Virus record (IMG/VR): IMGVR_UViG_3300046804_003859 | Span: 1 to 64,000 of that record | Reading direction: 5' to 3' (one strand) | Length of the DNA stretch: 64,000 bases | From: a virus | Shown here: positions 52,936 to 53,241 of the stretch, in pieces | How the letters are laid out: every line of letters begins with the position of its first letter | Numbering within the stretch: the stretch's first letter is position 1 | Position numbers and translations under genes: made by a program | Notes under the pieces: model-generated | The model's input: only the letters and a program-made list of their open reading frames with translations | What the model was told of the DNA's origin: nothing | Database searches by the model: none

Positions 52936-53241
52936 CCTTATTGTTGTATGAAGTAGAATGAAAGGTGTTCTGGACGCGGGTTCGACTCCCGCCACCTCCA
53001 CCAGAAGTGCATTTGCAGATCGTGCCACCTCCCTACTAAAAGGGAACGTACTGCAGAACGGAATGTGCTTCTGATGGGGGTGACATGGTTTCGACAGGGC
53101 AATGAGTAAGGATATGGACAACACGTCAGGCGATCGACGTTAATGAAGCAAAACAAGTAACTGCAAACGATGAAAGTTACGCTCTAGCAGCTTAAGCTAG
53201 ATGGGGTTTTGGTAGCTGTCCTTATTACCCAATCAGCTACC
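52936..53241 (+). ncRNA. ssrA: Circularly permuted tmRNA gene (two-piece type)
   Basis: The acceptor piece comes first: P2 strand CCTTATT (52936-52942) and TGTTCTG (52966-52972), T-arm GCGGG-TTCGACT-CCCGC (52976-52992), CACCTCC and ACCA ending 53003. An intervening hairpin follows (53003-53012 with 53063-53072; also TCCCT/AGGGA). The coding piece then begins GGGGGTG (53076), pairing with CACCTCC including G3-U70, and holds the P2 partners CAGGGCA (53095) and AGTAAGG (53105), a hairpin at 53123-53140, the tag and a stop-loop stem TCTAGC/GCTAGA. TGGG/CCCA with GGTAGCT/AGCTACC forms a final pseudoknot. tmRNA rescues stalled ribosomes. Confidence 0.93.
53163..53195 (+). other. tmRNA tag reading frame (ANDESYALAA)
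   Basis: Starting from the resume codon GCA at 53163, the codons read A-N-D-E-S-Y-A-L-A-A and TAA (53193-53195). E. coli reads ANDENYALAA, so the tag differs only at one residue. The upstream AGTAACT resembles the resume-codon context. ALAA is the degradation signal recognised by ClpXP. The stop codon lies in the loop of the TCTAGC/GCTAGA hairpin. Confidence 0.92.

Follow-up and report, generated by a model that had tools for sequence, protein, structure and literature searches.

The locus studied here raises the question of whether a phage genome carries a complete circularly permuted (two-piece) tmRNA gene, and what the structured RNA directly upstream of it might do. The window, the whole 64,000-nt stretch of DNA analysed, covers nearly all of a 64,215-bp virus record from IMG/VR. 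Its T4-like gene set includes a family B DNA polymerase, DnaB-like and UvsX-like proteins, a ribonucleotide reductase, PhoH, a gp59-like helicase loader and an ssDNA-binding protein. The nearest kin of its PD-(D/E)XK exonuclease were found in cyanophages, pelagimyophages and phage C48C1. IMG/VR contigs are fragments, and because some contigs with a close exonuclease relative are ~160 kb long, the record is probably a fragment as well. The phage host is predicted to be probably proteobacterial, as suggested by the host range of T4-like phages and the beta-type tmRNA described below. Aminotransferase-like and cytidyltransferase-like genes were also observed in the window, at 3323-4399 and 29792-31000.

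The gene at 52942 to ~53241 (plus strand, as are its parts, the leader and the PhoH, exonuclease and oxidoreductase genes given below) is a real circularly permuted tmRNA gene of the beta (betaproteobacterial) type. The first-pass annotation had placed a permuted tmRNA at 52936-53241, and this placement holds with refined boundaries. Covariance-model (Infernal) analysis with the permuted tmRNA families matched both RF04321 (tmRNA_permuted; 52942-53195, 152.6 bits, E 2.5e-30, gathering score 47) and RF01850 (beta_tmRNA; 52888-53247, 142.1 bits, E 2.1e-43, gathering score 84) in cmscan. ARAGORN called a tmRNA* with the tag ANDESYALAA. As had been read from the sequence, the acceptor half is encoded upstream of the 5' half, with the 3' domain at 52965-53003 and the 5' domain starting at 53076. 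The acceptor (3') piece (52942-53003) comprises the 3' strands of the distal and proximal P2, the T arm and the acceptor 3' strand CACCTCC (52993-52999), followed by A73 and CCA (53000-53003). The mRNA-like (5') piece (53076-53241, from G53076 and with an approximate 3' end) begins with the acceptor 5' strand GGGGGTG (53076-53082), which pairs with CACCTCC to form the acceptor stem. It continues with the GGTTTCGAC D-loop motif, P2, PK1, the tag, P5 and a 3' pseudoknot-like hairpin. The tag frame called by ARAGORN, ANDESYALAA plus a TAA stop, occupies 53163-53195, and the downstream stem GGTAGCTG/CAGCTACC (53211-53241) is followed by a T run. Among the pseudoknots flanking the tag, the PK1 covariance-model stem is 87% paired and this 3' stem 83%, with weak loop pairings; UCCU in the loop of the 3' stem could pair with GGGG at 53203-53206, as a weakly supported pseudoknot. 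A UGGG/CCCA pairing considered for the 3' pseudoknot was 53% paired and unsupported.

Alignment of 44 phage homologs revealed a structure that is 90% paired, a value that falls to 43-48% when the structure is slid. The homologs contain 331 doubly changed cells, compared with 87 in shuffles (0/500), and every tRNA-like helix of the tmRNA covaries. Pairing reaches 100% in the acceptor and T stems, and the acceptor stem exhibits whole-block swaps (among others GGGGGTG/CACCTCC, GGGGATG/CATCTCC, GGGCCTG/CAGGTCC and GGGCCAG/CTGGTCC) throughout which G3-U70 remains constant. This pair, previously proposed across the permutation, corresponds to the G-U pair 53078-52997 and is invariant in 44/44. The two P2-like helices that had been proposed to join the pieces fared differently: TGTTCTG/CAGGGCA was retained (99% paired, covarying), whereas CCTTATT (52936-52942)/AGTAAGG (53105-53111) was rejected, being 57% paired and including base 52942, which belongs to the supported distal P2 (TGTTGT 52942-52947/ACAACA 53118-53123; 97% paired, covarying). 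Tag frames are intact in nearly all of ~185 viral homologs. Directly 5' of the tmRNA, TATAAT is enriched across the family (32/128, against 5 in shuffles). Covariance model, ARAGORN and covariation bear out the earlier description of a phage-encoded, alanine-type, two-piece tmRNA with a non-alphaproteobacterial tag.

The two pieces are separated by a 72-nt intervening sequence (IVS, 53004-53075), which consists of a hairpin with the strands GAAGTGCATT (53004-53013) and AATGTGCTTC (53062-53071), then a conserved UGAU before the mature 5' G. The structured intervening hairpin noted at first reading is real: its helix is 95% paired in the 44 phage homologs, 9 of the 10 pairs show double changes, and the IVS alone has a folding-energy z of -3.2. 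Among distinct phage IVSs, UGAU precedes the mature 5' end in 95 of the 116 that are of the beta type and in 11 of the 15 that are of the alpha type; it was rejected as a signal unique to phages, since many bacterial beta IVSs have UGAU too and often end in UGAT like that of the window. The window IVS is longer and structured, the phage median being ~67 nt compared with ~30 nt in bacteria. A copy of the acceptor 3' strand, CCACCTCC, was also observed within the IVS at ~53022-53029, where it could compete for GGGGGTG. It was discarded as an acceptor decoy, as the exact 7-mer occurs in the window alone and is not conserved in relatives; the nearest relative (L124) has CCACGCC against an acceptor strand CTGGTCC, which points to coincidence.

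The novelty initially attributed to the gene was overstated. Two-piece phage tmRNAs were published in 2022, with phage Melnitz as an example and 53 two-piece forms among 133 unique phage tmRNA structures (PMC9004378), and they are common in viral contigs. The tmRNA database holds 79 phage sequences (PMC11915505). In our analysis, two-piece tmRNAs were found in more than 100 further viral contigs, with at least 119 stretches fitting a loose permuted-tmRNA pattern, nearly all of them confirmed by ARAGORN. Isolate phages with a beta-type permuted tmRNA include Alcaligenes phage QDWS595, Acinetobacter phage BUCT628 and Synechococcus phage BUCT-ZZ01, which resemble the window in type, with diverged sequences and no leader motif in their records. 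ARAGORN also reported permuted tmRNAs where no tmRNA feature is annotated, in HTVC008M (L221), QDWS595 (L002), BUCT628 (L004) and BUCT-ZZ01 (L003).

The bacterial counterparts (RF01850 and RF04321, in Alcaligenaceae such as Pelistega) have the gene order, G3-U70, T arm, P2 and tag in common with the window gene, which differs from them in its phage location and in the presence of a leader RNA. Among bacteria, permuted beta genes are confined to a narrow group, with 26 of 200 Pelistega-family genomes above the cut-off, and 22 of these 26 encode ANDESYALAA, the tag of the window itself. In trees, the window tmRNA falls among phage sequences, and long clades contain phages only. A phage origin of the bacterial beta tmRNA was not retained: the first trees nest bacteria among phages, but AU tests do not reject the constrained alternative, and the constrained tree scored better, so that the gene may have moved in either direction between phages and bacteria. 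The ssrA gene is a frequent integration site and prophages can carry pieces of it (PMC9004378), so the gene could in principle be a functionless captured host fragment or a tmRNA pseudogene, for instance one acquired through prophage integration at ssrA. We consider this highly improbable: the gene is complete and covaries throughout, its slot is conserved across a large T4-like group of the lytic type, and the phage-only clades are long.

The slot itself is defined by the order PhoH - exonuclease - tmRNA. In the window, a PhoH-like protein (50669-51469) and the PD-(D/E)XK exonuclease (phrog_298; 52059-52802) precede the tmRNA, and the exonuclease ends 140 bases 5' of it. A permuted tmRNA was present in 64 of 80 loci fetched independently by exonuclease relatives. 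Conversely, the exonuclease was found in 53 of 115 loci fetched by the tmRNA, on the same strand in all of them and within 2.5 kb upstream in 48. Melnitz and the pelagimyophages (PMC9004378) also encode a permuted tmRNA in this slot, the Melnitz order being PhoH - exonuclease - tmRNA - gp33, while in several cyanophages gp33 follows the exonuclease and the annotation shows no tmRNA in the gap. The tmRNAs of Melnitz and the pelagimyophages are of the alpha type with a glutamine riboswitch downstream; that of the window is of the beta type with a different leader RNA upstream. A tmRNA slot downstream of PhoH and the PD-(D/E)XK exonuclease in T4-like phages, occupied by either alpha-type or beta-type tmRNAs, looks new. 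Exonuclease and tmRNA distances correlate significantly overall (r 0.39, 0/2000) and weakly within the beta type (r 0.21), and strict co-inheritance of the two genes was rejected on the latter ground. The slot is a stable place at which some swapping of the tmRNA is likely. In contig L142, an alpha-type tmRNA (tag ANDNIAYEDIRLAA) lies beside an exonuclease that groups with those of beta-type carriers, which suggests that one tmRNA has taken the place of another there. The sequence, structure, conservation and synteny of the gene were all observed directly.

Downstream, outside the conserved slot, a FAD-dependent oxidoreductase (DAO; 53258-54286) lies directly 3' of the tmRNA. It belongs to a cassette at 53258-56462 that further encodes an unknown protein, a xylose-isomerase-like TIM barrel and another unknown protein. 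The cassette matched no PHROG, and close relatives of its oxidoreductase were not found among viruses; it is possibly an auxiliary metabolic or surface-sugar cassette.

From known tmRNA biology, we infer transcription, processing, charging, tagging, a benefit to the phage and a role of the leader as follows. A single precursor transcript would contain the leader RNA, the acceptor piece, the IVS hairpin and the mRNA-like piece. A cut by RNase P is expected before G53076, with the host enzymes that mature tRNA 3' ends leaving CCA at 53003; the 72-nt IVS would thereby be set free, while the acceptor stem and P2 would hold the two pieces together. Host AlaRS would then charge the tmRNA through G3-U70, and host SmpB would carry it to stalled ribosomes; SmpB was not found within the 64-kb contig. 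The stalled chain would gain ANDESYALAA and be directed to degradation, and the phage would profit when ribosomes that stall on cut or decaying mRNA in the infected cell are recycled. The compact leader RNA with its several helices would be removed from the mature tmRNA. We assign a probability of roughly 0.8 to this reading, in which an alanine-accepting, beta-type two-piece tmRNA rescues ribosomes in a T4-like phage and the leader acts as a processing or stabilising module.

The same gene might instead mainly compete with or re-programme host trans-translation, titrating SmpB or altering the tag and proteolysis for the benefit of the phage. Phage tags are diverse (e.g., ANDAFYGEDRLAA, ADQYEYAMAA and AEKADTFDFTAMSFTGNTVTGSSKIAFAA), and the TLD-only phage tmRNA of DS6A resembles an inhibitor of host tmRNA (PMC4131195). 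The window tag, however, is identical to the one commonly encoded by bacterial permuted beta tmRNAs, and a pure competitor would have no need of the whole intact molecule, so that we regard such a main role as improbable compared with ribosome rescue.

The leader RNA, on which the first-pass annotation is silent, is a more novel feature than the tmRNA itself. It lies 3' of the exonuclease stop (52802) and ends 6 nt short of the first helix of the tmRNA. The motif (52845-52935; covariance model R1, 86.9 bits) consists of a P1 stem (52845-52855/52925-52935) enclosing three hairpins: P2 (GTGGT..ACTAC), P3 (CCCGTTAACGGG) and P4 (GTAGG-GGCGGAT-CCTAC). Conserved stretches include GAUCU, AGAC, AAGAUC and GUACG. 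In the nearest relative, the leader is more conserved than the tmRNA acceptor stem, and in a third phage (L135/L325) compensatory changes were observed in all four leader stems. Using three pattern scans and the covariance model R1, we gathered a family of ~95 nt from 32 viral contigs, with 24 distinct sequences scoring 78-99 bits. P1 shows double changes at all ten pairs, although it lies outside every search pattern. Because the pattern scans are biased to members with conserved GAUC/AAGAUC/GGAUC, the family is probably wider. The exact 93-nt element has a folding-energy z of -3.2, and the wider 143-nt leader region a non-significant z of -0.16.

Comparison with known RNAs indicated that the leader family is apparently uncatalogued and new, within the scope of Rfam and the open-licence literature. 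Among 4227 Rfam models, no relevant match to the leader was obtained at E<=10, and none to the wider region at E<=5. T4 rnaC/rnaD, GOLLD (RF02032), manA (RF01745) and abiF RNA (RF03085) are likewise structured RNAs of phage tRNA regions, and the last three share arrays with the leader motif, but the leader differs from all of them in that none was matched by covariance model. Matches to the GOLLD and manA models begin 3-46 nt or more from the leader motif and never overlap it, and an identity with rnaC/rnaD of the T4 tRNA region was dismissed after R1 gave no match in L349 or in the whole of T4. R1 searches also found no leader in the other tmRNA loci tested, nor in Melnitz, HTVC008M or BUCT-ZZ01, and none was found in 249 Pseudomonadota genomes, in a search run without a positive control. 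No sigma-70-like promoter, and no enrichment of one, was detected right before the leader.

The settings of the leader in other phages are informative about its possible role. It lies 3-6 nt 5' of a tmRNA in the window and in L124, L320, L325, L363/L370/L373 and L375, and at the same distance 5' of manA RNA in L323, L330, L366 and L368. These manA-adjacent copies are in or beside phage tRNA arrays, and they suggest that manA RNA in phages is more than a protein-gene 5' UTR element. Other copies are found within tRNA arrays, with GOLLD nearby in L317, L319 and L348; in L322 and L324 the neighbour is abiF RNA. In L361 (10266-10360) and L362 (535-629), the leader motif is itself the IVS of a permuted tmRNA (tag ANDDYYQDYALAA), with P1 acting as the IVS helix and UGAT next. 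In L338, where it comes after a gp23-like gene and is preceded by a TATAAATA sequence, and in L345, the leader is located in a protein-gene 5' UTR. Additional apparently structured RNA, without an Rfam match, was observed between leader and tmRNA in L321 (8541-8792) and L318.

A self-cleaving ribozyme that creates the 5' terminus of the acceptor piece would account for the 3-6 nt distance to tmRNA or manA RNA (6 nt in the window), the removable IVS of L361/L362, and the conserved unpaired junction nucleotides around the four stems. Such an activity is nevertheless unlikely, as no Rfam ribozyme model matched and the region expected to contain the cleavage site has no conserved sequence outside P1, with P1 and its flanks varying freely. 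A slightly better, still low chance is given to the leader being a riboswitch that senses a ligand, or a regulatory 5' UTR, through which transcription into the tmRNA and, at other loci, into other RNAs or genes would be controlled. The compact multi-stem fold with invariant junction bases, the copies before protein genes in L338 and L345, and the glutamine riboswitch directly after the Melnitz tmRNA would agree with it; against it, the majority of copies are located 5' of stable RNAs or inside stable RNAs and tRNA arrays, one copy forms an IVS, and neither a terminator nor an anti-terminator emerged as an alternative fold.

Given its positions ahead of, between and within the parts of stable-RNA precursors that are discarded, the leader is most readily interpreted as an element for maturation or stability, most likely a module for precursor processing or stabilisation. 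Its occurrence before the protein genes of L338 and L345 makes a role in stable-RNA processing alone less certain. More broadly, and with slightly less than even odds, the leader may be the first member seen of an undescribed, modular and mobile four-stem RNA family of phages. Such a family would be inserted beside or inside those portions of stable-RNA precursors that can be removed (the leaders of tmRNA and manA, the IVS of tmRNA, and tRNA arrays), and it would control how these precursors mature or persist during infection.

That phages carry ribosome-rescue genes is known, yet their activity has hardly been tested. A slot filled by either alpha-type or beta-type genes implies that many T4-like phages have long retained tmRNA function. 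The leader is a well-defined, strongly covarying structured RNA in arrays with GOLLD and manA, and its function is directly testable in vitro. If it controls maturation, it may explain how the 5' ends of two-piece tmRNA precursors are formed in these phages.
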